Below are positions 17,351 to 46,184 of a DNA stretch of 50,224 bases, one piece after another. Numbering within the stretch: position 1 is the first letter of the stretch; each line of letters begins with the position of its first letter. Origin of the DNA: Candidatus Aquitaenariimonas noxiae (GTDB lineage Bacteria > Omnitrophota > Gorgyraeia > Aquitaenariimonadales > Aquitaenariimonadaceae); assembly GCA_002780005.1 (NCBI GenBank), contig PEWV01000042.1, forward strand, positions 1 through 50,224, read 5' to 3'. The notes under the pieces are model-generated. The model was not told where the DNA came from and ran no database searches. It was given only the letters and a program-made list of their open reading frames with translations. Position numbers and translations under genes: made by a program.

Positions 17351-17354
17351 AAGT

Positions 17355-18637: not shown

Positions 18638-18645
18638 AATTTAGT

Positions 18646-19728
18646 TTAAATCTCACCTTTAGGAATAACTACAACCTTTTTAAGATAATGTATTTCGCTT
18701 AATACCTTGCCGGTACCCAAGGCAACCGCTGTAAGCGAATCTTCCGCCAGATGAACCGGAAGGCCGGTCTCTTCCTGTATAAGCCTATCCAATCCCTTCA
18801 AGAGCGATCCTCCCCCGGCAAGAATAATACCTCTTTCTATCAGATCGGCGGAAAGTTCCGGCGGCGTCCTTTCCAATGTGATGCGAACTGCCTCCAATAT
18901 CTGCGCGATCGTATCTTTTAAAGATTCCCTTATCTCTTCGCTCGATACGGTTATTGTCTTAGGAAGACCCGCTACCAGATCTCTTCCTCTTACCTCCATG
19001 GTAAGCTCTTCATCGAGAGGGTACGCTGAACCTATTTTTATTTTTATATCTTCTGCTGTGCGCTCGCCTATCATCAGGTTATAAGTCTTCCGTAAATAAT
19101 TTATTATCGCCTCATCCATCTCGTCGCCGCCTATTCTGATACTCTTGGAAAATACTATCCCGGCAAGCGAAATCACTGCCATCTCGGTCGTTCCCCCGCC
19201 TATATCTATTACCATGTTTCCGGCCGGTTCTTGTATGGGAAGCCCGACTCCTATCGCCGCGGCTATAGGCTCTTCAACCAAATAAACCTCTCTTGCCCCG
19301 GCGTGTAAAGCAGAATCCTTCACAGCCCTTTTCTCCACCTCTGTTATGCCTGACGGTATCGCTATAACCATACGAGGTCTGACAAGGACTTTTCTGTTAT
19401 GGACCTTCTTTATAAAATAACGCAGCATGGCTTCGGTAACTTCAAAATCCGCTATAACACCGTGCCTCATAGGACGAATAGCTATAATATTTCCTGGGGT
19501 CCTTCCGAGCATTCTTTTTGCCTCCTCACCAACCGCCAGCACCCTTGAAGTCCCGGCTTGTATGGCTACAACCGAGGGTTCGCACAAGACGATTCCTTGA
19601 TTTTTTATATATACGAGAGTTGTAGCCGTCCCAAGGTCGATCCCCATGTCATTTGAGAAAAATCCTAAAATCATATTATATAACTTAAGTATAGATGTCC
19701 CTATGGCCTTCAATATCTCCTTTAGCAT
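18646..19728 (-). CDS. mreB: Actin-like rod shape protein MreB
   Basis: Cytoplasmic actin homologue (360 residues) that organises lateral wall synthesis. Motifs: phosphate-1 [14 protein letters not shown] (about 28-41), phosphate-2 [19 protein letters not shown], and adenosine loop [15 protein letters not shown]. About 20 residues ([18 protein letters not shown]) precede the usual start MILGFFSND. The first ATG has a well-placed AGGAGAGG about 5 nt upstream, so the extended N-terminus is probably real and would make an amphipathic membrane-binding helix. Heads mreBCD-mrdAB-radical SAM. Confidence 0.96.
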
Positions 19729-24114: not shown

Positions 24115-24584
24115 AATTTGGTATAAGGCATTGCCGTTAGTCTTTTTTTGGATATCTGCTTATCGCATTCCAGGCAATTACCGTATGTCCCATCCTCCAC
24201 CCTCTTAAGGGCCTCATTGATATCATATAAAACTTCCCTATCGCTACTGGCGATGCCGAAAGAAAATTCCCGATCGTAAGTATCCGTAGCTACATCAGCC
24301 ATATGATAGGTATAACCGGAGATATCTCCGGATGCATCCTTCTGAGATTTATTTAAAGTGTCCTTGGCTATATGCTGGATCTCGCCGGTTATCAGTTCTT
24401 TTTGCCTCAAGAGGAGTTTCTTATATCCCTTCAACTCCTGCTTTCCCATTTTTTTCACCTTTTCAAGCTTAGCCTTTTTGACACGGTTCTTTAAAATAGG
24501 CTTTTTATTTCTTACACTCGTTTTCTTTTGATGCGTTTTCTTGTGTTTTTTCATAACCTTAGTTCTCCCTTCATTATAATTCAT
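24063..24584 (-). CDS. DksA/TraR-type zinc finger protein
   Basis: A 173-residue member of the DksA/TraR C4 zinc finger family, which usually modulates RNA polymerase. The N-terminal 45 residues are very Lys-rich ([11 protein letters not shown]), probably disordered. A helical coiled region follows (about 50-100), then [21 protein letters not shown] and the zinc finger GNCLECDKQ...FCIKCQ. The ATG at 24554 (codon 11) is a good alternative start that avoids the 11-bp overlap with ileS. Gene order ileS - traR/dksA-like - lspA is seen in other bacteria (established context), which suggests a conserved unit. Confidence 0.88.
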
Positions 24585-27369
24585 TCATAACGTTGACACA
24601 CCTTTTGCAAAGTTCGGCATATTTTAAGTCTTTCCCTACGCTGGCTTTATAATTCCAGCACCTTTGACACTTTTTACCGCTTGCCTTTTGCACTAATATG
24701 CCTAAGTTTTTGAAACCATCGTCCCGACATAACTCGGATGGTATTTCTCCCTTTTTAACCAAATTAACTTCGGATACTATAAAAATTGCTTCCAGCTCAT
24801 TCTTATATTCATTTAAAAACGAAAAGGTCTCGTCATCTTTTATTACTAACTCAATTCTTGCCTCAAGCGAACTTCCTATCTCTCCTTTCATCCTTTTTTC
24901 CTCTACTGCCTTAAGTAAATAATTCCTTATATCAATTAACTTAGCCCAGCGTTCTTCCAGTCCGGCGTTTATCAAACTTTCATCTACGCTCGGCCATAAA
25001 CTAATGTGAACGCTTCCCGCCTTGCTCTTAAGTTTTGTGTTTTTCCATGCCTCTTCTGCCGTAAAAACAAGTATCGGCGCGATAGCTTTCTCCAGGATTA
25101 ATAGTATCTCGTATAGGCTGCTTTGGGCAGACTTTCTCCCCAAAGAATTTTTGCCGAATGTATATAACCTGTCCTTTAAAATATCGAAATAAAAACTTGA
25201 AAGCTCCATCACGCAAAAATCATACAGTGTCCTATAGACTTTATAAAATTCAAAATTCTCATAGGAGTTAGCTACTTTTTTAAGCATATTATAAGTCTTT
25301 GATATGACCCACTTGTCGATCTCCGATCTTTTGGAAAATTCAATTGCGTCTTTGCCCGGATCGAAATCGCTCAAGTTGCCCAGTAAAAACTTGATGGTAT
25401 TCCTTATCTTTCGATACGACTCTGCGATCCTCGCTAAGATCTCATCCGATATTCTCACATCATCGCTATAATCGGAAGAGGCGACCCACCATCTTAAGAT
25501 ATCGGCACCGTACTTTGTCGTGATCTCCTGAGGTGAAATAACATTGCCTAAAGATTTTGACATCTTTTTGCCTTCGCCGTCCACGACAAAACCATGCGTG
25601 AGAACCGTTTTAAACGGAGAGCGGTTGTCTATCCCCATAGCTGTGAGAATGGAAGTTTGGAACCATCCTCTATGCTGGTCGCTGCCTTCAAGGTAAAGAT
25701 CCGCCGGGAATGCCAGGTCGGAGCGCCTTTTCAGAACAGCGTGATGGCTAACGCCTGAGTCAAACCACACGTCCAGTATATCTTCCTCTTTTACGAATTC
25801 TTCAGATTTGCACTGCGAACATTTAGTTCCTTTTGGCAAAAGATCCAATTCACTTCTCGCGAACCAAACATTAGAGCCTTCTTTAGCGACCAACATCTTT
25901 ATGTGTTCTATCACATTTGCGTCCAATAATTCATAGCCGCATGCCTTGCAGTAAAACGCCGGTATAGGCACGCCCCAATATCTCTGGCGGGACAAACACC
26001 AGTCAGGCCTGTTCTCCACCATGCTCCCGATTCTTGTTTTGCCGATTTTAGGGACCCATTCTACTTTCTCTATTTCTTTTAAAGTCTCTTTTCTCAAGTT
26101 CTTATTTTCTATGTTTATGAACCATTGCTTTGTAGCGCGTGTAATAACAGGTTCCTTACATCTCCAGCAATGTGGGTATGAATGGCGGATTTCGCCTTTC
26201 CAGAATAAAAGCCCTTTGTTCTGGAGAATTTCTATGATTTTTTTATTAGCGTCAAAAACGCGCATGCCGGAAAGTTCTCCGGCTGTCTTATCAAAATCTC
26301 CCTTAGGCCCTACCGGCATTATGACATCCAGTTTATATTTAAGGCCTGTCTGGTAGTCTTCCATTCCGTGGCCAGGAGCGGTGTGAACGCAGCCTGTACC
26401 TTCTTTATTAGAAACATAATCCGCCAGAACGACCTTTGAAGTCCTCCCTAAGAAAGGATGCTGGCAGGTCAGTTTTTCGAGCTTGCTTCCTTTTATCCTC
26501 TCCTTAATAGTATACTCTGCGCCCTTGGCCTTCATTGTAAGTTCAACCAAATCGCTTGCCATGATTAATGTTTCCTTACCTGTTTCCAACACTGTATATT
26601 CTAAATCGGGATGCAGGGCAATAGCTACGTTAGCCACGAGCGTCCACGGTGTAGTTGTCCAGATCAAAAAATAGACATCTTTTGATTGAAGGCCCTTGAT
26701 TTCAGGCAATTTCTCAAGATCAAGGAGTTTAAACTTTACATAAACAGACGGCGATGCGTGGTCTTCGTACTCGACCTCGGCCTCTGCAAGGGCTGTTTCG
26801 CACTTTATGCACCAATTGATAGGTTTTAATCCCTTATATACATATCCGCCTTTGACCAACTCTTTGAATGCATCCAAAATAGACTCCTCATAGCCTGTCG
26901 CTAAGGTAAGGTAAGGCGCATCCCAGTCTCCGAAGATGCCGAGCCTCTTGAATTCCTTCTTTTGAATATCCACAAACTTCATAGCAAAATTATGGGCCTT
27001 TTGCCTAAAAGTCACCTTATCGATCTCGTGCTTGCTCATGCCAAGCTCTTTAAATAACTGATGCTCCACGGGCAAGCCATGGCAATCCCAGCCCGGAACA
27101 TAAGGCGAATCAAACCCTTTCATGGTCTTGTATTTAATGATTATATCTTTGAGGATCTTATTCAGGGCATGCCCTATGTGTATATCTCCGTTAGCATACG
27201 GAGGGCCGTCATGCAGAATATATTTTTTTGCGCCTTTTTTTGAGTTCCTTATAAGTTTATACAGATCTGCATTTTCCCATTCCTTGAAAATTGAGGGTTC
27301 TCGCCTGGGAAGGTCTGCCTTCATAGGAAAATCTGTTTGCGGTAAATTTAGTGTGTCTTTGTAATTCAT
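24574..27369 (-). CDS. ileS: Isoleucyl-tRNA synthetase
   Basis: Class Ia synthetase (931 residues) that charges tRNA-Ile, with editing. It shows the HIGH motif (64-67, in [10 protein letters not shown]), the WTTTPWTL editing-domain motif, KMSKS in [13 protein letters not shown], and a C-terminal zinc finger (C901, C904, C921, C924). The bacterial-type length and zinc tail indicate the common bacterial IleS and not the eukaryote-like, mupirocin-resistant type. A heptamer repeat lies directly upstream (27382-27412), between mtnP and ileS. Confidence 0.97.
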
Positions 27370-27381
27370 TTTCGCCTGTGT

Positions 27382-27412
27382 ACAGTTTACTGTTAACTGT
27401 AAACTGTTAACT
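27382..27412. repeat. Heptamer tandem repeat between mtnP and ileS
   Basis: About four 7-bp units of the type ACTGTTA/ACTGTAA run end to end across the 40-bp gap and the mtnP stop codon. The array also folds: ACAGTTTAC (27382-27390) pairs perfectly with GTAAACTGT (27399-27407) across an 8-nt loop. There is no U-run, so it is not a good terminator. Confidence 0.8.
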
Positions 27413-28277
27413 ATTTTTTTATATATTTGCCGATAATTATATCTAATTTCTTTTTTGTTTCCTGCGGTATGAACCTGGATTCGGTGATTATAGAATATTT
27501 AAGCGTCTGACGGCAGGCGCAGGGCCTGTCATCTTTTATTTTTGGTACGGCCTTCTTTATGATATCCTTCGCTCTTTGTGCGTTGCGTCTTAGATTATCT
27601 ATGATTATATCTATAGTAACGCTGCCTATCTCTTCACCTTCGCACCAGCAGTCATAATCCGTGACCATGGCCAAGGTCGCATAGCAAATCTCGGCTTCCC
27701 TTGCAAGCCTCGCCTCTGCCATATTGGTCATTCCGATGATATCCATGCCCCAACTCTTATAAAGTAATGACTCGGCCTTTGTGGAAAAGGCCGGCCCTTC
27801 CATATTTAGATAAGTCCCTCCTAAATGCATAGTTGCCCCTGCTTCTTTGCCAGAGTCGTATAAAATTTTAGCCAGACAATCGCATACCGGATGCGCAAAC
27901 GGTATATGGACGACTACGCCGTCTCCGAAAAAAGTCGTCTTTCTGGCCTGATTGGTGCGGTCTACAAACTGGTCCGGCACAATCATATGCAAAGGTTTGA
28001 GCTCTTTTTTGAAACTACCGACAGCGGCAACCGAAATTATAGAATCAACGCCCAATTTTTTCATCCCATAAATATTCGCTCGAAAATTTAGTTCGGTAGG
28101 CGTGATCTTATGCCCTCTTCCATGGCGCGGTAAAAACACAATCTCGCGTCCCTCCAAACTTCCGGTCAAATACTCGTCCGAAGGGTCTCCGAACGGAGTT
28201 TCTATCTTAACCCATTTAGGATCGGAGAATCCTTCTATGTTATACAAACCGCTTCCGCCTATAATCCCTATTTTCAC
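27411..28277 (-). CDS. mtnP: S-methyl-5'-thioadenosine phosphorylase
   Basis: Purine nucleoside phosphorylase family enzyme (288 residues) that splits methylthioadenosine to adenine and methylthioribose-1-phosphate in methionine salvage. Motifs: GIIGGSGLY at the start, [22 protein letters not shown], and [19 protein letters not shown] followed by VTDYDCW. The start is GTG (28275-28277). The Shine-Dalgarno GGAGG lies at the inner edge of a 14-bp inverted repeat (see 28276-28358), so translation may be regulated. Related 6-oxopurine phosphorylases are an alternative; MTAP is favoured by length and the NMEGPAFS segment. Confidence 0.9.
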
Positions 28278-28358
28278 CCCGTTAGACCTCCATTAATTTT
28301 TTTACTAACATTATATATTTTTCAACTCCCATTAGAGCATTTTTAGGTCTAACGGGGT
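28276..28358 (-). repeat. 14-bp inverted repeat spanning the yggT-mtnP gap and mtnP ribosome binding site
   Basis: Arms 28276-28289 (ACCCCGTTAGACCT on the plus strand) and 28345-28358 (its exact reverse complement) are separated by 55 bp. In the minus-strand RNA the 5' arm starts right after the yggT stop codon. The 3' arm takes in the AGGT of the GGAGGT Shine-Dalgarno sequence and ends at the mtnP GTG. Folding would block ribosome access. It may be an RNA switch, or merely a REP-like palindrome that landed here. Confidence 0.85.
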
Positions 28359-28658
28359 TCATTTTAACCTCGTTGCCAGTTCAAGCAAACTTTTAACTAT
28401 AAAATATTTTACGAACAACAGAATAAGAAGCACAAATATGGGAGATATATCTATTCCTATATTATAGGCAGGAACAATTTTCCTAAATGGGGCCAATAAC
28501 GGCTCAGTGACATTATTAAGGATCTGAACAATAGGATTGAATGGATCAGGGCTTACCCAGCTTAAGAGGGCCCTGATTATTACCAGCCACCAAAGAACGC
28601 TCGTAACTATATCCAGGCATATTGCCAATGCGCTTATAAAGTTAGCTACTAAAAACAT
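28359..28658 (-). CDS. yggT: YggT family membrane protein
   Basis: Small inner-membrane protein (99 residues, two hydrophobic segments at about 5-30 and 72-92) of the YggT family, found near yggS/proC and division genes in many bacteria. The central SWVSPDPFNPIVQILNNVTEPLLAPFRK and the following IDISPIFVLLIL are the family signature. Its start overlaps the proC stop by one base (TAATG). The molecular role is not settled; links to osmotic stress and cell division have been proposed. Confidence 0.92.
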   Translation of the reverse strand: MFLVANFISALAICLDIVTSVLWWLVIIRALLSWVSPDPFNPIVQILNNVTEPLLAPFRKIVPAYNIGIDISPIFVLLILLFVKYFIVKSLLELATRLK

Positions 28659-29473
28659 TATTTACCACCTGAAATTTCTTTTGACCTGTTCGCCGCAGCT
28701 ATAACAGCCTCTTTAACAATTCCTGAGAAATTTTTGCTCATAAATACCCTGAATGCCGCCTCCGTCGTCCCGCCTTTTGATGTGATCTTGTCACGTAAGA
28801 CCTGCGGGGTATGCTTCAGGTGCGAAAGCAATTTAGCGCTGCCTATAGCTGTCTTGACAGACAGCCTCTCGGCTATATCCCTGGCTATCCCCAAGCTCAC
28901 CGCGCTTTCCGTTAGCACTTCTACCAAATAAAAAAAGTAAGCCGGGCCGCTCCCGCTTATCGCGGTTATAGCGTCCATTTTATCCTCTCCGACTTGTATA
29001 GCATCTCCGAGAGCTAAAAATATCCTCATTACGATCCGCTTATTCTCCTCTTTCACTCCTTTGGCAAAGCTTACCGCTGAAACCGACTCTTCAACAAGGG
29101 CCCCCATGTTGGGCATCACCCTGGCAATTTGAACCTTCTTCCTGGAAAGTTGCCTTATTTTACCCGTTTTCACTCCGGCTAGGACAGAGATCAAAAGTTT
29201 TTTTGACACAAGAGAACCCGAAATCCAGTTCATAACTTTACTAAGATCTTGAGGCTTTACCGCAAGCACTATTATATCGCAGATCTTGGCTAGCTCGGTA
29301 TTATCGGCGGCCTTAAGACCATAATGGTGTTTTATATAATTTAACTTGCTGGGAATAGTATCGCTTACTATGATCCTGGATTTTGGAATTATATCTTTGG
29401 CAATAATTCCTCTAATGATCGCTTCTCCTATATTGCCGCAACCGATTACCCCTAGATATTTATCTCTAAACAT
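28658..29473 (-). CDS. proC: Pyrroline-5-carboxylate reductase
   Basis: Last step of proline synthesis: NAD(P)H-dependent reduction of pyrroline-5-carboxylate (271 residues). The N-terminal Rossmann motif is GVIGCGNIGEAIIRGI (about 8-23), and the C-terminal signature is ITAISGSGPAYFFYLVE then KTAIGSAKLL. It starts 2 bp after yggS, in the common yggS-proC-yggT order. Confidence 0.95.
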   Translation of the reverse strand: MFRDKYLGVIGCGNIGEAIIRGIIAKDIIPKSRIIVSDTIPSKLNYIKHHYGLKAADNTELAKICDIIVLAVKPQDLSKVMNWISGSLVSKKLLISVLAGVKTGKIRQLSRKKVQIARVMPNMGALVEESVSAVSFAKGVKEENKRIVMRIFLALGDAIQVGEDKMDAITAISGSGPAYFFYLVEVLTESAVSLGIARDIAERLSVKTAIGSAKLLSHLKHTPQVLRDKITSKGGTTEAAFRVFMSKNFSGIVKEAVIAAANRSKEISGGK

Positions 29474-29475
29474 AA

Positions 29476-30159
29476 TTACACCTCGCCTTCAAAAATAGCC
29501 CGTCCGACCCTCACAATATTGGCGCCTTCTTCAACGGCTACTTCAAAATCCTGGGTCATCCCCATAGACAGGCATTTCAATTTCAATCCGTCAAACTTAT
29601 TATTTGCCTCATTAAGCATATTTTTGAGCTTTTTAAAAAAGGGGCGGGCACCTTCTTGATTGCTAACCAGGGGAGCCATAGTCATAAGGCCTAACACCCT
29701 TACATTGCTTAGCTTCAAAATATCCTCTAATACGCCGAAAAACTTTTCCGGTTCAATACCGAATTTGTTGCTTTCGCCAGAGGTGTTAACTTCCAAAAGC
29801 GCATCGACTAATTTATTCTGTTTAATAGCCTCGGACTGTATAGCCTTGGCTAATTTTACGCTATCAACGGAATGAATAAGATCAAAGATCTTCAATGCGT
29901 CTTTTACTTTGTTCGTCTGAAGATGCCCGATCATGTGCCATTTAAGCCCTTTCCCCTGTAAGGCTTTATATTTTACAAGGGCATCCTGCACCCTGTTTTC
30001 TCCCACCTCACGCATCCCGAAGCCTATAGCATCTATTATATCATTTAAAGAGGCTTCTTTTGTTACGCAAACAAGGGTTACTTCCTTGGGGTCCCTGCCC
30101 TTCCTTCTGCAGGCACTATTTATTCTTTCTTGTATCCTTCTGATATTTTCGGAAATCAT
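29476..30159 (-). CDS. yggS: PLP homeostasis protein YggS/YlmE
   Basis: PLP-binding, TIM-barrel-only protein (227 residues) of the YggS/YBL036C (PLPBP) family that buffers pyridoxal phosphate. The PLP lysine is in TLVCVTKEAS (about 35); GENRVQDALVK, HMIGHLQTNKV and the C-terminal SMGMTQDFEVAVEEGANIVRVG are typical. The gene follows ftsA, where ylmE-like genes often lie. The promoter at 30171-30199 would start transcription only about 5 nt before the ATG and there is no Shine-Dalgarno sequence, so the message may be nearly leaderless. Confidence 0.94.
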   Translation of the reverse strand: MISENIRRIQERINSACRRKGRDPKEVTLVCVTKEASLNDIIDAIGFGMREVGENRVQDALVKYKALQGKGLKWHMIGHLQTNKVKDALKIFDLIHSVDSVKLAKAIQSEAIKQNKLVDALLEVNTSGESNKFGIEPEKFFGVLEDILKLSNVRVLGLMTMAPLVSNQEGARPFFKKLKNMLNEANNKFDGLKLKCLSMGMTQDFEVAVEEGANIVRVGRAIFEGEV

Positions 30160-30170
30160 TTTAAAGTCTT

Positions 30171-30199
30171 AATTTAACACAGAAAAAGACAAATGTCAA
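30171..30199 (-). promoter_or_regulatory. Sigma-70-type promoter of yggS-proC-yggT and downstream genes
   Basis: Minus strand TTGACA (30194-30199), 17-bp spacer, TAAATT (30171-30176). The predicted start is near 30164, about 5 nt upstream of the yggS ATG. Two 24-bp direct repeats end two bases upstream of the -35 box. Confidence 0.8.
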
Positions 30200-30200
30200 G

Positions 30201-30248
30201 AAGGTAAAATTGAGGTGTTATTGCAAGGCAAAATTGAGGGCTTATTTA
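30201..30248. repeat. Two tandem 24-bp imperfect repeats upstream of yggS
   Basis: Unit 1 (30201-30224) and unit 2 (30225-30248) share AAGG-AAAATTGAGG and TTATT with only a few differences. They fill most of the 109-bp gap between ftsA and yggS, the place where ftsZ would be expected, and abut the -35 box of the yggS promoter. They could be an operator pair or a deletion scar. Confidence 0.75.
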
Positions 30249-30268
30249 CACAAAGAATAGTCCGGGAA

Positions 30269-31480
30269 TTAAAAATAATCGTTTATGAAGGAGAGAATTT
30301 TGTGCGTAAAATTGGATACGGGATTCGCTGGGCTTATCCTCTTGTTTTTTTCTCTGGCCTCCTTGGCGTAATATTCGATAGCACCTATGCTGGATGCGAA
30401 TAAATGAGAAGATTGGCCAGTATTAAGGTATTTTGTCTTAAGTTTTCCTATTCTTGCGGGCATATTAAAAAAGCCTTCTATTCTCTCCAGGAAACCGTCT
30501 AAAAGGATACTGCCGCCTATAGCTACTATGCCTGATTTTATAGAGTCTGCTACTAAAGAGTTGTCCAATTCGCTTTTTATTGCCGTAAGAAGATCTTCTG
30601 TTTTTTCCCTGACCGCGGCATTAACCTCCGATCTTAAAAATGTCCTTTCCTTGCCGCCGATTATTATGCTGATCTTTTTATCCCCTTTTGTTTCTTCCGT
30701 AATACTTGCGTCAAGCTTTAATCTTTCAGCCGAGGCGGAAGGAATTTTAAACTTTTCGGAAATATGATTTGTAATGTCCAAACCGCCCAGTCCTAACACA
30801 TTGCAAAATTTTATCTTGCCGTCGCTCGCGACAACTATTTTGGTAGTATCGCAACCTACATCAAGGAAAATAACGCCATTTTCCAATTCGTCTTCATTCA
30901 CAATGCAACCGGCCCCTATAAGACCAGAGAATATTATTTTCTCGGTATCATAACCGGCATAGTTTATGCACCTCATCACGTTCTGAATATGCGCCAAACT
31001 ATGCAGAAGGGAATACAAATTAACTTCCAATTTTTTAGCGAAAAGTCCTACCGGGTTTTTTACGCCGTCCTGGCCGTCTAGCTTATAACTCTCGACTACT
31101 TCGTGAAGTATGCAACTATCCAATGAAAAGTTCATATTCCTAGCCGTTTGAAGGACTTTTTCTATGTCTTTTTGGGTGAGTTCACGCGGCGGGCCCTGCA
31201 GAACAATATAAGCGTTTAATTTGTCGGTCGAGAACCCGAGGCCGCCTATAGATATTATGACCTTAAAGATTTTTGGACCATATTTATCTTTAACCCTATA
31301 CATTATATTTTCAACGGCGCTTGATGCCTCGCCGAGATCGATTATGTTCCCCCTTGAAATACCGCCGGACGGAGACTCCTCCACGCCCAGTAGGTCCATA
31401 TAGCCATCTTGATGGATTTTTGCTACGGCAGCCCGCAGCTTTGAACTCCCCAGATCCAGACCCGTTAATATCTTATCCAT
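30269..31480 (-). CDS. ftsA: Cell division protein FtsA
   Basis: Actin-like protein (403 residues) that anchors the Z-ring to the membrane and recruits late division proteins. Phosphate-1 TGLDLGSSKLRAAV (about 7-20), phosphate-2 GVIFLDVGCDTTKIVV and adenosine motif GIVAIGGSILLDGF are present. The C-terminal segment HKILSFINDYF is the amphipathic membrane-targeting helix, so the protein is complete. It starts 9 bp after ftsQ. The gene after it is yggS, not ftsZ. Confidence 0.94.
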   Translation of the reverse strand: MDKILTGLDLGSSKLRAAVAKIHQDGYMDLLGVEESPSGGISRGNIIDLGEASSAVENIMYRVKDKYGPKIFKVIISIGGLGFSTDKLNAYIVLQGPPRELTQKDIEKVLQTARNMNFSLDSCILHEVVESYKLDGQDGVKNPVGLFAKKLEVNLYSLLHSLAHIQNVMRCINYAGYDTEKIIFSGLIGAGCIVNEDELENGVIFLDVGCDTTKIVVASDGKIKFCNVLGLGGLDITNHISEKFKIPSASAERLKLDASITEETKGDKKISIIIGGKERTFLRSEVNAAVREKTEDLLTAIKSELDNSLVADSIKSGIVAIGGSILLDGFLERIEGFFNMPARIGKLKTKYLNTGQSSHLFASSIGAIEYYAKEAREKNKRISPANPVSNFTHKILSFINDYF

Positions 31481-31489
31481 AAATTACCC

Positions 31490-32278
31490 CTACCTAGGCT
31501 TCACAACTACTTCTTTAAACCTCAAATCAATATATAAGATCCCCTGGGCGTTTATATCAGGATTTCGTAACGTCTTTTTCAAAAGTTCAAGCTTCCTTGA
31601 GAAATCCTCTCCGCCCATCTTAACCTCTAAACCGTCATCTATAGAAAACGATATATTTTCGCTGTCAGATGCGTCTATATCAGAAACGTTATGGCTTTCC
31701 AGCACGTTTGATTTTGATAATTCTTTTATAAGGCTCAAGGCCCTATCCAGGCCGACATAGTTAAATTTTTTCCCTATATCCTTATCGGTAACGTAAATCC
31801 CACCGATTACAGGCAAGCCTTCCAAAACAGTCCTGCTTGTATCTTTTAATATCACGCCTTCTTCGTCAACGCGATAATAATTTTTAGAATTTATTTGCGC
31901 TATTGCCTTTCTTTTCGTCACATAGAAAACCAGTTTATTTGGAAAAACTTTTTCAATATGAAGATCTTTGATCTCAAAATGTTCCTTTTTAAGAGAATTG
32001 CTTATGGCGCCTAATTCTATAGAAAAAATATTCTCGCCGATCCCTATATTTGAAAGCTTTCTGAATAAATACGAATCTTCTACCCCATCCCCCTTCATCT
32101 CCGATTCTTTAATGACAAATGTGGGCGAATTATAAAGATAGTTTTTCGTTAATATAACTAAACCTATAATAATAGCCAAGGCCGTTAAGATGGCTAGGCT
32201 TTTCGGCATGAATAAAAATTGTATCAGTTTATCTACAGGACCGCCCTTCCGTTTCCTACCCTTGGATTTTCTAGCCAT
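31490..32278 (-). CDS. ftsQ: Cell division protein FtsQ/DivIB
   Basis: Bitopic division protein (262 residues): a very basic cytoplasmic tail (KSKGRKRKGG), one membrane helix at about 28-48, a POTRA domain (about 50-125, with GIGENIFSIELGAISNSLKKE and KVFPNKLVFYVTKRKAIA), then a beta domain ending in KEVVVKPR. Position between ddl and ftsA and the domain order establish the call; the sequence is divergent, as usual for FtsQ. Confidence 0.92.
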   Translation of the reverse strand: MARKSKGRKRKGGPVDKLIQFLFMPKSLAILTALAIIIGLVILTKNYLYNSPTFVIKESEMKGDGVEDSYLFRKLSNIGIGENIFSIELGAISNSLKKEHFEIKDLHIEKVFPNKLVFYVTKRKAIAQINSKNYYRVDEEGVILKDTSRTVLEGLPVIGGIYVTDKDIGKKFNYVGLDRALSLIKELSKSNVLESHNVSDIDASDSENISFSIDDGLEVKMGGEDFSRKLELLKKTLRNPDINAQGILYIDLRFKEVVVKPR

Positions 32279-32288
32279 TATCTGTCCT

Positions 32289-33212
32289 TTATTTTTTTAA
32301 CGCTAATTCTACCATTCTTTTGCACAGATCACTGAATGATATGCCGGCCTGTTCGGCCGCCTTGGGTAATAAGCTCCTGGAGGTAAGCCCTGGGATTGTG
32401 TTTACCTCCAGTGCGTATATTTCGCCGTCTTCTCCTAGTATCATATCGACTCTGGAAAACCCCCTGCAGTTCAAGGCTATGTGCGCTTTTTTCCCGATAT
32501 ACTTAGTTTTTTTATGTTCTTCTTCATTTATCGGCGCAGGGACAAGATATTTCGTATCAGACCTTATATACTTCGCTTCATAATCATAAAAGTCGGACCC
32601 AGGCACTATCTCTATGGCGCATAACGGCTCTTCGTCAAATATCCCTACGGTTATCTCTCGTCCCTTTATATATTTTTCTATGATAATGATATCATCATAC
32701 ATGCATGCCTTGTCAATTGCTTTTTTTAGTTCATCCTCTCCCCTTACGATTGAAAGCCCGATACTTGAGCCTTCGCATCGAGGCTTCACTACAAGAGGAA
32801 ACTCGAGATTTTCGGCTTCTATTTTTTCTTTTCTTTGAAATACCATGTACGGAGGGGTAACTATACCGCTCTTTGCGAAAATTTTTTTTGTGGCAACCTT
32901 ATCAAGCGCCAGCCGCGATGCCTGCGGACCTGAACCCGTATACGGAATATGGAGTTCGTCCAAAATTTCCTGGATCTCTCCGTCTTCGCCGAACCTTCCA
33001 TGCAAGGCTATAAAAGCTATCTCGATACCTTTTTCCTTCAGTGAAGTTTTTAAGTTCTCTTTATTATCATCTTTTATATCTATCAATACCACATCGTATT
33101 TCTCCGCTCTTAGAGAATTATATACGGCTTCGCCTGATTTGAGCGATATCTCCCGCTCGCTTGACGGCCCCCCGGCTAAAATCCCTATTTTTTTGGATGC
33201 AATGCCGTTCAT
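32289..33212 (-). CDS. ddl: D-alanine--D-alanine ligase
   Basis: ATP-grasp enzyme (307 residues) making the D-Ala-D-Ala dipeptide for MurF. Motifs: GGPSSEREISLKSGEAV (about 14-30), HGRFGEDGEIQ, KPRCEGSSIGLSIV, and the metal-binding EVNTIPGLTSRSLLPKAA. The start overlaps the murB stop by 4 bp. Normal length for DdlB-type enzymes; I see no change that would suggest D-Ala-D-Lac specificity, though this was not tested. Confidence 0.95.
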   Translation of the reverse strand: MNGIASKKIGILAGGPSSEREISLKSGEAVYNSLRAEKYDVVLIDIKDDNKENLKTSLKEKGIEIAFIALHGRFGEDGEIQEILDELHIPYTGSGPQASRLALDKVATKKIFAKSGIVTPPYMVFQRKEKIEAENLEFPLVVKPRCEGSSIGLSIVRGEDELKKAIDKACMYDDIIIIEKYIKGREITVGIFDEEPLCAIEIVPGSDFYDYEAKYIRSDTKYLVPAPINEEEHKKTKYIGKKAHIALNCRGFSRVDMILGEDGEIYALEVNTIPGLTSRSLLPKAAEQAGISFSDLCKRMVELALKK

Positions 33213-34111
33213 TTGCAGATTTTCACCTCAAGCTCAAGATCTATATTAAATTCTTCTTTTACCTTGCCTCTCATTATATCAATCAGTTTTTTCACATCAT
33301 TGAATTTTGCGTTGCCGAGATTTATTATATAATTAGCATTTTTTTCCGAAATTTCCGCATCTCCTATCCGTTGTTTCTTCATGCCGGCCAAATCAAGAAG
33401 TTTACCGGCGCTTACAAAACCGCCATACGGGTTTTTAAACACGCAGCCGGCGCTCGACTTCCTGCAATCCTGGCTTTTATTCTTCTTTTCCAGTATTTCT
33501 ATGCATTGTTTCTTTATATAATCTTTCCTCGCCCTCTTGAGGCAGAACTCCGCTTCCAATACAATAAATCCTCCTAGCGATGAAGTCCTATAGCCGAATT
33601 TTAAATCCTTTTTTTTAATGGTTTTTATTCTACCATTTTTGTCCGATACAGTCACCTGATTTACAAAGTTTCCTATATTCGATTCCGGCCTCTTCGGTCC
33701 TAAGCCGGCATTCATCGCTACAGAGCCTCCTACCGTACCCGGTATACCCGAACAAAATTCTAATCCCGTTAAACCGTTTTCTATGCAAAAATCGAGAAGG
33801 CTTCTTAAGCTGGCCCCCGCTCCAACCGTTAAGCTGGCCCCTTTCATTCTTATATACCTGAAAAAAGGGCTCGAAAGGCGTATGAATATGCCGTTTATTT
33901 TTTTATCGCTTACCAAAAGATTGCTGCCGCCCCCTATTGTATAAATCGGTTTTTTTAGTTTTTTACCGAGCTTGATTATGTTTTGCAGATCTTCCATATC
34001 GAGCGGCTCGGCCCATTTATCCGCTATACCGCCTATTCTAAAAGTGGTATGGCGCGATATGCTTTCGTTGGATCTCATTTTGCCCTTTATAAAACTATCG
34101 TGCTTCTTCAT
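33209..34111 (-). CDS. murB: UDP-N-acetylenolpyruvoylglucosamine reductase MurB
   Basis: FAD enzyme (300 residues) reducing UDP-GlcNAc-enolpyruvate to UDP-MurNAc. FAD-binding signatures are TFRIGGIADKW (23-33), YTIGGGSNLLVSDK (57-70) and GIPGTVGGSVAMNAG (122-136). The proton-donor motif, usually GS.FKNP, reads AGCVFKNP with Cys223 in place of Ser; a Cys here is known in some MurB proteins. Compact type II-like architecture. It lies 8 bp after murC and overlaps ddl by 4 bp. Confidence 0.95.
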   Translation of the reverse strand: MKKHDSFIKGKMRSNESISRHTTFRIGGIADKWAEPLDMEDLQNIIKLGKKLKKPIYTIGGGSNLLVSDKKINGIFIRLSSPFFRYIRMKGASLTVGAGASLRSLLDFCIENGLTGLEFCSGIPGTVGGSVAMNAGLGPKRPESNIGNFVNQVTVSDKNGRIKTIKKKDLKFGYRTSSLGGFIVLEAEFCLKRARKDYIKKQCIEILEKKNKSQDCRKSSAGCVFKNPYGGFVSAGKLLDLAGMKKQRIGDAEISEKNANYIINLGNAKFNDVKKLIDIMRGKVKEEFNIDLELEVKICK

Positions 34112-34119
34112 GGTTATGT

Positions 34120-35523
34120 TTATAACTTAAGTTTTGCTTTAATTTCGCGCTCTTTGAGCCTCTGCGCTATTTTAACTGAAATATCTCCTATGTCGCCGGC
34201 ACCTAATATCAGCACAATATCGCCTTTGTTTACCCTGGAGCCTATGTAATCGACTATTTCATCTTTAGCGATCAGGCATACTTCGTTTTTGCCTTTTTGT
34301 TTTACTTTATCGAATATCAACTTAGTACTTACTCCTTTTATAGGATCTTCATGCGCAGAGTATATATCCGTAAGTATCAATTCGTCTGCCATATCAAAAG
34401 CGCTCCCAAATTCATCCGCAAGCAACTGGGTCCTGCTGAATCTGTGCGGCTGGAATATACTTATTACTTTGCCTCTATGCCAGTGCTTACATACTTCTAA
34501 AGTAGCTTTAATCTCTGTGGGGTGATGGGCGTAATCTTCAATTACAAGAATGCCTCCGAAATCGCCCTTAACCTCAAATCTGCGGGCAGCCCCTTTGTAA
34601 TTAGAAAGTGCAGTTTTAATAATAGAAGGGCTGATCCCTATCTCTAAAGCTACGGAAATAGCTCCGAGCGCATTCAAGACGTTATGGCTTCCGGGCAGCA
34701 TGAGTTTGAACTTATCTATTTCTTTGCCGAGAGATAGGCATTTGAAGGTAGTCGTAATGCCTTGGACTTCCACGTCTTTTGCGTATAAATCCGAATCCGA
34801 TGAAAAGCCGAATGTCTTATACCTGTTTCTATAATCCTTAAGGGCCTTTTGTATGTTTTTATCCCCGTACAGGCAGAATAAACATCCCCCTTTTTTTATA
34901 TTATCTACAAATTTTCTGTTAGCGCTTATCAGATTTCCCATATCTTTATAATGCTCTAAGTGTTCTTTGTCAATATTTGTCAGCACCGCATAATACGGCT
35001 GGAGCTCGACAAAAGAACCGTCGCTTTCGTCGGTTTCCATTACAAAAAACTCACCCTTACCAACTTTAGCATTTCCTCCGAAATTAATAACCTCCGTTCC
35101 TACAAAAATGGTCGGGTCCAGGCCGGCTTCCAAAAGGCACAGCCCCGTAAAAGTAGTCGTCGTCCCTTTACCGTGGGCCCCGGTAATTGCCACACCTTTC
35201 TTCTCTTGTATAAGCGTTGCCAGCATGGTTTGCCTATGCGCTATTTGGATATTCAATTTTCTGGCTTTTATCATTTCGGGGTTATCTTCTCTTATGCACG
35301 AGGTGTATACGACCAAATCCACATCACCTTCCAGATTCGAATCTCTATGGCCTATAAAAATTTTTGCGCCCTTCGAGCGTAATTTAGCGATAAGACCGTT
35401 ATCCTTTAAATCAGAGCCGCTTATTTTACAGCCCAATTCCATCAACAGAAAAGCCACGCCGCTCATTCCTATGCCGCCTATGCCTACAAAATGTATTTTT
35501 TTCTTCTTTTCTATCTCGATCAT
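34120..35523 (-). CDS. murC: UDP-N-acetylmuramate--L-alanine ligase MurC
   Basis: Adds L-Ala to UDP-MurNAc (467 residues). The N-terminal domain shows HFVGIGGIGMSGVA (11-24); the central domain holds METDESDGSF and TNIDKEHLEHY; the C-terminal domain has EDYAHHPTEI and FQPHRFSRT, all family hallmarks. The Walker A motif is GAHGKGTTTT (115-124): the usual Thr/Ser right after the catalytic Lys119 is Gly120 (codon 35164-35166). The frame is intact on both sides, so this is not a frameshift. Activity is presumably kept through the next Thr, but that is inference. Confidence 0.94.
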   Translation of the reverse strand: MIEIEKKKKIHFVGIGGIGMSGVAFLLMELGCKISGSDLKDNGLIAKLRSKGAKIFIGHRDSNLEGDVDLVVYTSCIREDNPEMIKARKLNIQIAHRQTMLATLIQEKKGVAITGAHGKGTTTTFTGLCLLEAGLDPTIFVGTEVINFGGNAKVGKGEFFVMETDESDGSFVELQPYYAVLTNIDKEHLEHYKDMGNLISANRKFVDNIKKGGCLFCLYGDKNIQKALKDYRNRYKTFGFSSDSDLYAKDVEVQGITTTFKCLSLGKEIDKFKLMLPGSHNVLNALGAISVALEIGISPSIIKTALSNYKGAARRFEVKGDFGGILVIEDYAHHPTEIKATLEVCKHWHRGKVISIFQPHRFSRTQLLADEFGSAFDMADELILTDIYSAHEDPIKGVSTKLIFDKVKQKGKNEVCLIAKDEIVDYIGSRVNKGDIVLILGAGDIGDISVKIAQRLKEREIKAKLKL

Positions 35524-35524
35524 T

Positions 35525-36616
35525 TTATTCTGCTTTTAAGTTTAATATCAGATCTACCACGTTCTGCACTGCCAGTCCTTTTTGTCTCGGAGGGTTTGAG
35601 AATTTTTCTATCTTTTCCCTGTTTCTATAAAAATACGATATCTTATCGTAGAGGCGCTCGACCAAAAGCTCGTTTTCTTCTAACACGATAGACGTGTTAT
35701 GTATAGACATATAACGGGCATTTCCGGCCTGATGCGTGCGGGCATACGGATAAGGAATTAATATCGACGCTTTGCCGAAAAAGGCTATCTCGGAAATGGC
35801 TATACCGCCGGCTCTTGAAATAACTATATCCGAAGCGCAATACGCGCGATCCATTTTATCGAAAAAGCTATAAACTTTAGAATTTACTCCAAGTCCTGAA
35901 AGCCGATCCCGCACTTCCAGGCAATCGCTTTCGCCTGAAATATGAATTACCTGAAACCCCTTGCGGTCCTCGGCATTGAATTTTTCGAACATTTTGACAA
36001 TAGACTGATTTATTGTATGCGCCCCCTGGCTGCCGCCTATGACGAAAATTGTAAATTTTTCAGCGGTAAAACCAAATTCCACCAGCGCCTCATTCTTATT
36101 TATTATCTCCAGGGAGTTGCGGATCGGGTTTCCCGTAAACACCAGTTTATATTTGTCCTTAAAAAAAGCTGCGCTTTCTTCGAAAGAAATAGCTATCGCT
36201 TCGACAAATTTCGACAAAATCAGATTTGTCCTGCCGGGAAAAACGTTCTGTTCGTGAATAATGGTCGGGATCCGCAGCAACCAGGCGCATAATAAAACCG
36301 GTCCGGCCACAAATCCGCCCAGGCCTAACACTAAATTCGGCTTTACTTTCCTTAATATATTAAAAGCCGCCGCAAAAGTCGCCGTCAAACCGATAAAGAA
36401 AGGAATAAGCTTAAATGAAATTCCGGCCGGGAGATTGTAATTAGGGAGCAAAATATATGGATATATCTCTTTTTTCAGGATTTTTTTCGCTATAGCCTTT
36501 TGTCCCGTTACAAATGTAACTTCACAGTCTTTATCTATCCTTTTTAACTCATCTGCTACGGCTATCCCGGGAAATAAGTGACCTCCCGATGTGCCGCTTG
36601 CTATCAATATTTTCAT
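35525..36616 (-). CDS. murG: Lipid II synthase MurG
   Basis: GT28 glycosyltransferase (363 residues) that adds GlcNAc to lipid I on the cytoplasmic face of the membrane. It shows the Gly-rich loops ASGTSGGHLFPGIAVADEL (7-25), HEQNVFPGRTN, VIGGSQGAHTINQS and SRAGGIAISEIAFFGKASIL, all typical of MurG. Separated from murC by one base and overlapping ftsW by 4 bp. Confidence 0.96.
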   Translation of the reverse strand: MKILIASGTSGGHLFPGIAVADELKRIDKDCEVTFVTGQKAIAKKILKKEIYPYILLPNYNLPAGISFKLIPFFIGLTATFAAAFNILRKVKPNLVLGLGGFVAGPVLLCAWLLRIPTIIHEQNVFPGRTNLILSKFVEAIAISFEESAAFFKDKYKLVFTGNPIRNSLEIINKNEALVEFGFTAEKFTIFVIGGSQGAHTINQSIVKMFEKFNAEDRKGFQVIHISGESDCLEVRDRLSGLGVNSKVYSFFDKMDRAYCASDIVISRAGGIAISEIAFFGKASILIPYPYARTHQAGNARYMSIHNTSIVLEENELLVERLYDKISYFYRNREKIEKFSNPPRQKGLAVQNVVDLILNLKAE

Positions 36617-37713
36617 AGCGCACCTCTCTGAGGCGACCCCTTGGCAACATTTAATAAAAGGCCGACCGCCATCATATTAAATATGAGAGCGCTTCCGCCG
36701 TAACTTATAAAAGGCAGCGGAAGCCCTTTTGTGGGAATAGCGCCTATGCTGACGCCTATATGCACGAGCGTCTCAAGCGTGATCATAGAAACAACACCGA
36801 GGCTCATTAGTTTTCCGAAATGATCATTGCACTTTAAAACCACCCTGGTGCCTTGGACGGCGAAGATAAAGAAAAGTCCTACTACGCTTAAGGTTCCAAT
36901 AAGCCCTAATTCCTCGCCTATTATTGAAAATATAAAATCTGTATACGCGGCCGGAAGGTAGAACAATTTCTGCGTTGACTGGCCGAGGCCCACTCCGATC
37001 AACCCGCCGCTGCCAAGCGCGAGAAACGACTGTATTATCTGAAAGCTTGTCCCTCGCGGATCCTGCCACGGATGTAAAAACGCCGTAATCCTATTCCTTC
37101 TGTATGTTGTGCCGAAAACCGCTACGAGCAAAACCGGCAGTGCTGCGAGAAATGAGTATAGAATGTGCTCCAATCTTGTCCCGGCTACAAATAACATTAT
37201 AAATGCGATGCAGCTTATCGAAACAGCCGTTCCTAAATCTGGTTCTAAAAGAATTAAGCCGATAGACAGGCCTAAAACAAGCACAAGAGGCGCAAAACCC
37301 GTTAAAAAACTTTTTATTTCGCTGCCTTTTCGCGAAAGGGCATCGGCAAGGTATATTATCATGGATAATTTCATTGCCTCGGAAGGCTGAAAGTTAAAAG
37401 GCCCGAAATGGAACCATCTTCTAGCCCCTCCGGCTTGATATCCTAGCCCAGGTATGAGGACCGCTACCAAAAGTATGAATGATATAAGAAGTAACAATCT
37501 GGCGTATTTTTTAAAATATGCATAATCGATGCTCATAACGAATATTGTAGGCGGAATTCCTATAAGCAAAAATAAGAGGTGCCTTTTTAAATAGAAAAGG
37601 CTATCTTTTAATCTTTCGTAAGCGTATATCGCGCTCGCGCTGTAAATCATAACTATGCCGATGGCGATAAGTATAGATACTACTACTAATATTGAGATCC
37701 GTATCTGGCGCAT
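36613..37713 (-). CDS. ftsW: Septal SEDS glycosyltransferase FtsW
   Basis: Polytopic SEDS polymerase (366 residues) acting with FtsI at the septum. Signatures: GARRWFHFGPFNFQPSEAMKL, LEPDLGTAV, the conserved Asp in AAYTDFIFSIIGEELG, and LPLPFISYGGSALI. Position between murD and murG marks it as FtsW; the paralogue at 14538-15638 is RodA. The start lies 28 bp inside murD. Confidence 0.95.
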   Translation of the reverse strand: MRQIRISILVVVSILIAIGIVMIYSASAIYAYERLKDSLFYLKRHLLFLLIGIPPTIFVMSIDYAYFKKYARLLLLISFILLVAVLIPGLGYQAGGARRWFHFGPFNFQPSEAMKLSMIIYLADALSRKGSEIKSFLTGFAPLVLVLGLSIGLILLEPDLGTAVSISCIAFIMLFVAGTRLEHILYSFLAALPVLLVAVFGTTYRRNRITAFLHPWQDPRGTSFQIIQSFLALGSGGLIGVGLGQSTQKLFYLPAAYTDFIFSIIGEELGLIGTLSVVGLFFIFAVQGTRVVLKCNDHFGKLMSLGVVSMITLETLVHIGVSIGAIPTKGLPLPFISYGGSALIFNMMAVGLLLNVAKGSPQRGAL

Positions 37714-39065
37714 TTCTTATCTTTTAGATTCTTTACCGCTTTTATGAACATTTCTCCCCGCTCTACATAATCTCGGAACATGTCGAAGCTGGTGCACATA
37801 GGCGAAAGTAAAATCGCCTCGCCCTTATTCGCTATGCTGTAGGCCAATTCTACGGCTTCTTCCAAAGAATTCGCCTCGCGGATATCCACGATATCTTTCA
37901 TGTAATTTGCTATTTTTTCTCTGGCCTCCCCTATCAGGACCAGATGCCTAACTTTTTGTTGTATAGTGTTTCTTGCCACGCTAAAATCGCTTTCCTTGTC
38001 TCTTCCGCCTGCTATAAGGATTGCCGGCCTGTCCAGAGATTCAAGTGCTTTAAGAGTAGCGTCAACCGTAGTCGCCTTAGAGTCATTTATGAACTCTACA
38101 TCTCCTATTTCATCGACAAATTGGAAACGATGAGGCAGCGGAACAAAAGACGAGATGCTTTTGACTATATCGTTATTGCTAAGACCGATTAATTTCCCCA
38201 CCAAGATGGCTGCCATAGTATTATCCAGATTGTGCAGCCCTTTTAACTGCGTGGCTGCAGTAGGACAGACATTCTCCAGCTTTCCGCCCATGCTTATTAA
38301 AATATCTTTGTCCTTTATAAAAGCGCCTTCTACTTCGTTTTCGTTGCTGTAGAAAAATTTACGCGATGGCGCCTGGATATCCATATTCCTCAAAATAGGA
38401 TCTCCATAATTTAATATTATGAAATCCCCTTCGTCCTGGTTTAAGAATATTTTGCTTTTCATAGTTTTATATTCGCTGAAATCTTTGTGCCTATCTAGGT
38501 GGTTATCCGTAAGATTAAGAATGACCGATATATAAGGTTTGAATTTATTTATATATTCGAGCTGGAATGAGCTTACCTCAAGCACTACATAGTGCTCCCT
38601 TGTTATATTAGCCACTTCTCCGCAAAAAGATGTACCGATGTTGCCGCAAACTATAACCGGCTTTCCGGAATCTTTTATCATTTTACCTATCAATGAAGTA
38701 GTTGTCGTCTTGCCGTTAGTGCCCGTTATAGCTATTATTTTGCCTCTGCAGAAAAGATATCCTAGTTCAAGCTCGCTTATAACAGGAATGCGATAAAGGT
38801 TTGCCCACCCGATAACGGGAGAATCTTTTGTAACACCCGGACTTATAACTATAAGATCCTTATCTTTAACAAAAGACTCCGAGTGCCGGCCTATTTCTAC
38901 TTCTATACCTTCGGCCTTTAGCGTATCGGCACTCTTCATTATGCTCTCGCTCATTCCGCTATCTGTCACATACACCTGGGCCCCTTTTCCTTTTAAAAGA
39001 ATGGCTGCCCCTATACCGCTTCGCGCGATTCCTACAACCGTAGCTTTTAATCCTTTTAGGTCCAT
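37686..39065 (-). CDS. murD: UDP-N-acetylmuramoylalanine--D-glutamate ligase MurD
   Basis: Adds D-Glu to UDP-MurNAc-L-Ala (459 residues). The N-terminal Rossmann-like domain starts GLKATVVGIARSGIGAA; the ATP loop is AITGTNGKTTTTSLIG; NLTDNHLDRHKDFSEY and INDSKATTVDATLKAL are the catalytic and C-terminal signatures. It starts 4 bp after mraY and overlaps ftsW by 28 bp. Confidence 0.96.
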   Translation of the reverse strand: MDLKGLKATVVGIARSGIGAAILLKGKGAQVYVTDSGMSESIMKSADTLKAEGIEVEIGRHSESFVKDKDLIVISPGVTKDSPVIGWANLYRIPVISELELGYLFCRGKIIAITGTNGKTTTTSLIGKMIKDSGKPVIVCGNIGTSFCGEVANITREHYVVLEVSSFQLEYINKFKPYISVILNLTDNHLDRHKDFSEYKTMKSKIFLNQDEGDFIILNYGDPILRNMDIQAPSRKFFYSNENEVEGAFIKDKDILISMGGKLENVCPTAATQLKGLHNLDNTMAAILVGKLIGLSNNDIVKSISSFVPLPHRFQFVDEIGDVEFINDSKATTVDATLKALESLDRPAILIAGGRDKESDFSVARNTIQQKVRHLVLIGEAREKIANYMKDIVDIREANSLEEAVELAYSIANKGEAILLSPMCTSFDMFRDYVERGEMFIKAVKNLKDKKCARYGSQY

Positions 39066-39069
39066 TTTA

Positions 39070-40158
39070 TCACCTCAATTTTAGTGTCACTAAACCAAAT
39101 AAGGCCAGTACAATAGCTACTATCCAAAATCTTATCGTTATCTTGGACTCGGCCCACCCTTTAATCTGGAAATGATGGTGCAGCGGCGCCATTAAAAAAA
39201 TTCGCTTGCCCATCAACCTGAAGGAGGCTATCTGCATTATTACGCTAAGCGCCTCTACGACAAATATGCCGCCAACCACGAACAACAATAGCTCTTTTTT
39301 TATTAAAACAGCTACGGCGCCGATAGCGCCCCCTAATGCAAGAGAACCCGTATCCCCCATAAATACGGTGGCCGGATGCGAGTTAAACCATAAAAATCCT
39401 AAGGACGCGCCGAGCATACTTGCGCAAAAAATAGATAGCTCTCCTGAGCCCGGGATATAAAGTATCCTTAAGTATTCCGCTATTGTCATGTGGCCTGATA
39501 CGTAACTAAAGATCGTGTACGTCAACGCTATCGCACATACACAGCCTATTGCAAGGCCATCCAAACCGTCTGTTAAATTAACCGCGTTGCTGGATGCAAC
39601 TATTACGAGTATTACAAAAAATATATAATATACCCCTAAATCCAGGAAAACTTTTTTAAAAAACGGTATATCTAAATTTGTGGTCGCCCCGGGCTCGATA
39701 TATAAATATAATCCTATTAAAAATGCAGGCAACAGCTGGCCCGTGAGTTTCGTGGCCATAAGCAAACCTCTGGATTTCTTCCTTGTAAGCTTTATGCGAT
39801 CGTCTACAAAACCTACTGCCCCAAACCATAAAATAGACATCAATGCGATAACTATATATTTATTCGTGTAATCCGCCCAGAGAAGCGTGGAAGAAACAAC
39901 GGAGATTATTATAAGAAGCCCGCCCATTGTAGGCGTTCCTTCTTTATGTTTATGGTATTGATAAAGGTTCGGCGCATCTTTTCTGAAAGTATCTTCTCCA
40001 ATCTTTAAGTTCTTGAGCCATTTTATTACAAAAGGCCCGGCTATGATACTTATCAGAAATGCCGTTATGCTCGCGAAAGCCGTGCGGAAGGTTATATACT
40101 TAAAAACATTAAAACCGAACCATATATCCCTTAACGGGTAGAAGAGGTGGTAAAACAC
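39070..40158 (-). CDS. mraY: Phospho-N-acetylmuramoyl-pentapeptide transferase MraY
   Basis: Integral membrane enzyme (362 residues, about ten helices) that makes lipid I by moving phospho-MurNAc-pentapeptide to undecaprenyl phosphate. It starts FYHLFYPLRDIWFGFNVFKY, a typical MraY opening. Catalytic regions GFVDDRIKL, SSNAVNLTDGLDGLA and FMGDTGSLALGG, and the APLHHHFQIKG motif, are present. The start codon is GTG (40156-40158), lying 28 bp inside the murF 3' end. Confidence 0.97.
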   Translation of the reverse strand: MFYHLFYPLRDIWFGFNVFKYITFRTAFASITAFLISIIAGPFVIKWLKNLKIGEDTFRKDAPNLYQYHKHKEGTPTMGGLLIIISVVSSTLLWADYTNKYIVIALMSILWFGAVGFVDDRIKLTRKKSRGLLMATKLTGQLLPAFLIGLYLYIEPGATTNLDIPFFKKVFLDLGVYYIFFVILVIVASSNAVNLTDGLDGLAIGCVCAIALTYTIFSYVSGHMTIAEYLRILYIPGSGELSIFCASMLGASLGFLWFNSHPATVFMGDTGSLALGGAIGAVAVLIKKELLLFVVGGIFVVEALSVIMQIASFRLMGKRIFLMAPLHHHFQIKGWAESKITIRFWIVAIVLALFGLVTLKLR

Positions 40159-44658: not shown

Positions 44659-44675
44659 AACTTTTTCTTAACCTT

Positions 44676-45044: not shown

Positions 45045-45048
45045 TTTA

Positions 45049-45945: not shown

Positions 45946-45950
45946 AGGTC

Positions 45951-46127: not shown

Positions 46128-46184
46128 CGGGCCCTCCATTCTTTCTAGATACCATCTGCATAAGTATCGAGTAATATATATCGA

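Follow-up and report, generated by a model that had tools for sequence, protein, structure and literature searches.

FtsZ is the tubulin-like protein that most bacteria need for division, and FtsA normally anchors it to the membrane. Division of a walled cell in the absence of FtsZ is still poorly explained. The known cases, Chlamydiae and Planctomycetes, have mostly lost FtsA too, and because the two proteins mostly disappeared together, their roles are inseparable there.

For Omnitrophota (Omnitrophica), the absence of FtsZ is partly in print and contested, with one paper for it and three that say or imply otherwise. A 2021 figure legend in PMC8178401 lists Omnitrophica among the FtsZ-less phyla, and excerpts of that paper name only Planctomycetes and Chlamydiae as being without FtsA. 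Excerpts of PMC5147048 report FtsZ only in Omnitrophica OLB16, with uncertainty about two others; an excerpt of PMC5945725 counts Omnitrophica as FtsZ-bearing; and PMC12283558, in the portion that concerns dcw genes, calls those of Omnitrophica highly conserved. The main text of an Omnitrophota survey (PMC10066038) does not mention FtsZ. Literature searches did not find the extent of the absence, the history of the junction or the erosion of FtsA, as described below, in print.

Gene order at the ftsA-yggS junction

The window analyzed here is the whole 50,224-nucleotide stretch of DNA from Candidatus Aquitaenariimonas noxiae, a member of this phylum. Its dcw genes run in the order mraZ (46185), rsmH, ftsL, ftsI, murE, murF, mraY, murD, ftsW, murG, murC, murB, ddl, ftsQ, ftsA (Table 1). 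A sequence-only reading of the window had described a standard cluster from which ftsZ was missing between ftsA and yggS. Both parts of that description stand: from mraZ to ftsA no gene of the cluster is missing or out of its standard place, as judged by profiles and, from murF to mraZ, by ORF reading, and the ORF calls leave exactly 109 bp (30160-30268) between ftsA and yggS, with no ftsZ. The same reading saw two 24-bp direct repeats in this gap. A repeat is present, as two 22-nt copies that are 86% identical at a spacing of 24, not as perfect 24-mers. It was considered as a deletion scar and rejected; because the loss is ancient and phylum-wide, and because the length of the spacer differs among relatives (see below), a scar is unlikely, and we judge the repeat to be incidental.

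Table 1. Positions of genes and other features in the window that are discussed in the text.
Feature	Position	Strand	Evidence or remark
109-bp ftsA-yggS spacer	30160..30268	.	ftsZ slot in FtsZ-bearing bacteria, on the basis of ORF calls and outgroup locus L120
ftsA	30269..31480	-	403 aa; FtsA fold; C-terminal helix (predicted) ending NDYF
yggS (PLP-binding protein)	29476..30159	-	227 aa; TIGR00044, 178 bits; gene after the missing ftsZ
ftsQ	31490..32278	-	PF03799, PF08478
ddl	32289..33212	-	profile matches
murB + murC	33209..35523	-	profile matches
murG, ftsW, murD, mraY	35525..40158	-	profile scan
murF, murE, ftsI, ftsL, rsmH, mraZ	40131..46622	-	ORF reading and position, no profile scan
rodA, pbp2 (mrdA), mreD, mreC, mreB	14538..19728	-	intact elongasome cluster; MreB TIGR00904, 531 bits
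proC, yggT, mtnP-like, ileS	24574..29473	-	flank keeping the gene order seen after ftsZ elsewhere
22-nt direct repeat, two copies, 86% identical	30201-30222 + 30225-30246	.	spacing 24
sigma-70-like promoter match reading into yggS	30199..30171	-	TTGACA-17-TAAATT; ~0.8 expected by chance

Searches for FtsZ

The genome to which the window belongs (1.93 Mb, 81 contigs, 97% complete) contains no FtsZ detectable by a PF00091 profile search, a search that was positive in 13 of 14 named control genomes. Because FtsZ is found nowhere in the genome, its absence at the junction is far beyond chance. The same model found FtsZ in 0 of 59 genomes of the same class, the window's own among them, and in a sample of 384 genomes from across the phylum it was negative in 382. 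Sampling 384 genomes from the class alone again left 382 negative, with the same two positives. Of the phylum sample, 57 genomes belong to other classes, so that the two samples span at least 441 different genomes. The full-length FtsZ model TIGR00065 was negative in 381 of 384 genomes, the third match being marginal at 18.5 bits. As a yardstick for draft genomes, PF00091 found FtsZ in 38 of the 43 genomes, all titled MAG, that lie behind the named loci of other phyla. One of the 38 is the divergent FtsZ of Verrucomicrobium (genome G428), detected with 70.9 bits and an E value of 2.5e-19. FtsZ is missing from two single-contig genomes of the phylum (G023 and G054) as well. Relocation of ftsZ was rejected, since no FtsZ appeared elsewhere in the genome, class or phylum searches.

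The two positive genomes require separate comment. A canonical FtsZ in G299 is encoded on a 3.7-kb contig (contig 130, L001) beside a gene with an FKBP26_IF domain. Its best PDB matches are the 1w5e/1w58/1fsz group at ~310 bits, entries from Methanocaldococcus jannaschii, followed by 9v7v at 281 bits and others at 249 and below. Given the short contig, the neighboring gene and these matches, it was rejected as a genuine FtsZ of the phylum; contamination of the bin with archaeal DNA is the most likely source. G211 (L002:1012-2295) and contig 77 of G299 (L003:999-2261) encode a tubulin of TubZ-like type, 420-427 aa long; the two genomes are from different families of the class and are the only two of the 384 to have it. 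These proteins, which score 43-50 bits in the same searches, combine a lysine-rich basic N-terminus with matches to a tubulin GTPase domain and a TubZ-like C-terminal domain. This is not a normal FtsZ.

ftsA loci across the phylum

A set of 81 phylum ftsA loci was assembled from the window and 80 further stretches, picked around FtsA matches and so silent on the frequency of FtsA per genome. The upstream neighbor is nearly constant, ftsQ adjoining ftsA in 77 of the 81. On the other side of ftsA, yggS follows directly in 16 loci (the window included) and after other genes in 6, proC directly in 5, a PilT-like ATPase directly in 7 and after another gene in 5, and other genes in 38, with a contig end in 4. 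Where ftsA and yggS are direct neighbors with a positive spacer, its length ranges from 4 to 885 bp. A profile built from 43 outgroup FtsZ sequences and run unfiltered found no FtsZ in the 81 loci, the best ORF having an E value of 0.31; the same profile recovers it from 48 of 81 outgroup loci.

Outgroup loci that extend beyond ftsA nearly always have ftsZ as the immediate next gene, and of the 42 with room for a further gene, 7 have yggS behind ftsZ. The Nitrospiraceae locus L120 has the order ftsA-ftsZ-yggS-proC, and the window has the identical order minus ftsZ. The sequence-only reading had asked whether ftsZ was moved or lost, naming a search of the whole genome and of the same junction in relatives as the means to decide, and an ftsZ elsewhere or an assembly error as grounds to abandon the idea of loss. 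Neither was found: the genome search turned up no relocated ftsZ, and the ftsZ-less junction recurs in independent genomes. Given the phylum-wide absence, the 81 ftsZ-less loci and the L120 order with ftsZ still in it, the absence of ftsZ is an ancient loss, and neither a move nor an assembly error; its phylum-wide scale goes beyond what that reading had envisaged. On gene order, the simplest history would be that an old arrangement lost ftsZ and nothing else, at a time before the radiation of the phylum. A six-protein dcw tree was built from 2002 columns and from loci with at least four of the six proteins. All 65 phylum loci group together in it, and among the 51 named outgroup loci Verrucomicrobium is the sister of this clade (support 0.987 and 0.996); the branches are long and the tree is midpoint-rooted. 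That position, taken with FtsA present and FtsZ absent, would point to Omnitrophota.

Several loci have an ORF of ~370 aa after ftsA that was considered as a divergent FtsZ and rejected, the ORF being a PilT-like ATPase. This gene stands directly after ftsA, often overlapping it, in L034, L063, L064, L065, L068, L233 and L244, and after another gene in L038, L247, L249, L250 and L254; the loci represent several families and at least two classes. A different arrangement, a run of ORFs of ~370, 130, 445 and 500 aa after ftsA, is seen in several loci of family f56 and its neighbors (L220-L232) and in L069, where the first ORF looks like GcvT on inspection and hints at a glycine cleavage operon. 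At L058:2971-5274, a 767-aa ORF matches MurC and a separate murB is missing, so that it looks like a murC-murB fusion; such a fusion is reported for Verrucomicrobium spinosum in an excerpt of PMC12283558.

Retention of FtsA

The FtsA of the window scores 228.2 bits against TIGR01174, over a cut-off of 175.85, and contains the PF02491 SHS2 (1C) domain and PF14450. Its AlphaFold model has a mean pLDDT of 87.4, and the 19 best PDB matches of the model are all FtsA chains, among them 7q6f (a double-filament crystal form) and 4a2a (a complex of FtsA with an FtsZ peptide). AlphaFold places a C-terminal helix at residues 387-402 with low to moderate confidence (pLDDT ~51-64), predicted to be the membrane-targeting amphipathic helix. 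The profile match and the modeled helix are in agreement with the sequence-only description of this FtsA as intact and equipped for membrane targeting.

FtsA scores over its curated cut-off in 223 of the 384 phylum genomes. A looser tally of 383 of 384, at E <= 0.001, was set aside as a count since MreB and related actins match too. A phylum FtsA profile was run on 33 of the 57 genomes from other classes and found FtsA in 31, the other two, G085 and G086, giving matches only at the level of MreB. The same profile was used to re-search 16 genomes, namely 15 with weak hits and G000. Divergent FtsA proteins were recognized in seven (G004, G008, G038, G042, G281, G290 and G304), and degenerate full-length ones in four genomes of family f47 (G194, G211, G217 and G257). 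Two further f47 genomes, G216 and G259, yielded only MreB-level matches, G018 only an FtsA fragment at a contig edge, and G176 no FtsA match. The f47 proteins can be aligned with FtsA over the full length (hhalign probability 99.6) and retain the ending YREYF or YRDYF, while their nucleotide-binding motifs look lost. In each of the f47 loci L236, L237, L238 and L243, the FtsA-like gene is followed by a gene of ~640-650 aa.

Sequence change in FtsA

An alignment was made of 36 FtsA sequences from FtsZ-bearing bacteria and 77 from the phylum, the four f47 proteins being left out. The 36 were picked by length and by similarity to the FtsA of E. coli or the window, a narrow choice that may overstate the 17 columns found invariant among them (E. 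coli numbering throughout). Most of these columns are largely preserved in the 77 phylum sequences, including G336 (77), G381 (76), P146 (75), G16 (72) and K258 (65). The three least kept are D242 (4), R300 (4) and E303 (20). We take R300 and E303 to be residues of E. coli FtsA that contact FtsZ, although our literature search did not find a paper stating this; the chance of both falling among the lowest three of 17 columns is 0.022.

Mean pairwise identity of FtsA is 24% in the phylum versus 49% in the outgroup. As a control for divergence, the FtsA of Verrucomicrobium, with a mean identity of 27% to the rest of the outgroup, keeps D242, R300 and E303. All three are also kept in L093 and L130, two outgroup FtsA sequences added later. 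An additional outgroup ORF, L083 (60 bits), has none of the three, and was dropped as not clearly FtsA. Several observations count against reading the pattern as decay of an FtsZ-binding site. G214 (7 of 77) and G39 (10 of 77), which lie outside the site and belong to the 31 columns with at least 95% conservation in the outgroup, are nearly gone as well, and FtsA evolves fast in the phylum. The FtsA of the window, from a genome in which FtsZ is absent, has the charge-conserving residues K at 300 and D at 303 and keeps R286, so that the site is not plainly destroyed in this protein. A basic/acidic pair at 300/303 is kept in 10 of the 77.

The position of E. coli R153 is basic in 72 of 77 phylum sequences, which would be compatible with double filaments; an excerpt of PMC7613929 places R153 in the lateral interface of E. 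coli FtsA double filaments. M96, which belongs to that interface too, varies within the phylum and the outgroup alike. Of the 81 phylum FtsA proteins, 76 have Tyr-Phe as their C-terminal pair. FtsZ-bearing bacteria usually have Phe as the last residue (31 of 38), rarely after Tyr. In L240 and L161, both of family f5, a divergent FtsA ends DFF or TLF, not Tyr-Phe.

Models for division without FtsZ

Among the 59 same-class genomes, MreB scores over its cut-off in 56 and the FtsK motor is present in 58. MinC_C was found in 0 of the 59, which weighs little, as only 6 of 14 control genomes have it. Excerpts of PMC7613929 propose that FtsA, in the form of curved double filaments, aligns the synthesis of septal wall in a way that resembles the part of MreB in elongation, with FtsZ as a long-range organizer. 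The reading that we favor, as reasonably likely, is that FtsZ was lost in or before the ancestor of the phylum and that division proceeds through septal wall synthesis organized by FtsA without a tubulin ring. The gene would have disappeared entirely by the time of that ancestor, and its neighbors, ftsQ-ftsA upstream and yggS-proC-yggT-ileS downstream, would have closed up around the gap. Division would continue without a tubulin ring, probably with an actin-like scaffold in place of FtsZ. We infer that FtsA is this scaffold and acts as double filaments: released from FtsZ binding and held at the membrane by its C-terminal helix, it would form short, curved, actin-like double filaments that recruit and align FtsQ, FtsL, FtsW and FtsI, together with FtsK and MreB. 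The f47 proteins count against an ATP-driven filament, their degenerate nucleotide motifs fitting a membrane scaffold better, and since the nucleotide site has decayed in that family, its FtsA may, from its sequence, be a passive scaffold.

The most serious competitor, which we regard as unlikely, keeps the loss of FtsZ and has MreB, with FtsK, run division as proposed for Chlamydia, leaving FtsA a mere accessory membrane adaptor. It draws on the retention of MreB and FtsK in nearly all same-class genomes, on the complete mreBCD-pbp2-rodA cluster of the window, on the f47 FtsA-like protein, which without nucleotide motifs probably does not work there as a normal actin-like ATPase, and on chlamydial MreB, which directs division according to an excerpt of PMC7029139. 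However, parts of PMC12283558 and PMC8178401 indicate that in Chlamydiae and most Planctomycetes the loss of FtsZ was accompanied by loss of FtsA, whereas FtsA here stays beside ftsQ and is kept in nearly all of the other-class genomes tested. This wide retention of FtsA, at its usual position, is why we rate the FtsA model above a Chlamydia-like MreB model. It is very improbable that the searches overlooked a tubulin or FtsZ gene that persists in highly diverged form. Verrucomicrobial FtsZ is itself divergent, and a TubZ-like tubulin does occur in two genomes, but the searches catch proteins of both kinds and returned nothing in 382 of 384 genomes, and no tubulin-like ORF lies beside ftsA.

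That the gene at present downstream of ftsA, for instance the PilT-like ATPase, took over from FtsZ is more doubtful still. That ATPase recurs after ftsA in 12 loci spread over several families and at least two classes, but the other 69 loci have yggS, proC, something else or a contig end, and because the next gene varies in this way no single gene took the ftsZ slot. PilT, moreover, has its own role in pili. The chance that ftsZ is missing only from the assembly, or that the contig is misassembled at 30.2 kb, is negligible: the genome is a draft, but the ftsA-yggS junction is present in 15 further independent genomes, which refutes this explanation, and single-contig genomes share the absence.

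The favored model of FtsA-organized septation has a stronger form, to which we give slightly less than even credence. The whole phylum would divide with a tubulin-free, FtsA-only ring in which the former FtsZ anchor has become the organizer of septation; the near-invariant, phylum-specific acidic-Tyr-Phe end may dock a new partner; and one family, its nucleotide site decayed, would use a pure membrane scaffold.

A phylum that has lost only FtsZ amounts to a natural experiment on FtsA acting by itself. The finding also bears on the published conflict over FtsZ in Omnitrophota, and argues against FtsZ as a universal bacterial marker.

Comparison with known systems

Compared with the canonical FtsA described by TIGR01174, the protein of this phylum has the same fold, the SHS2 domain, the place in the dcw cluster after ftsQ and a (predicted) C-terminal helix ending in Phe. 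It differs in that D242, R300 and E303 are mostly lost across the phylum and the gene for its partner FtsZ is absent. The Verrucomicrobiota, sister to the phylum in the six-protein tree, have an ftsQAZ cluster in which FtsZ is present (G428) and FtsA keeps those three residues. Planctomycetes, which are PVC relatives, likewise have no FtsZ; according to excerpts of PMC12283558, FtsA is mostly missing from them and a large part of the peptidoglycan pathway is gone in some, whereas the dcw cluster in the window is complete. Chlamydiae, also PVC relatives, share the lack of FtsZ together with the retention of most other dcw genes, FtsK and MreB. In Chlamydiae, however, FtsA is also missing (PMC12283558 and PMC8178401, in excerpt), whereas the phylum described here keeps FtsA in its place.
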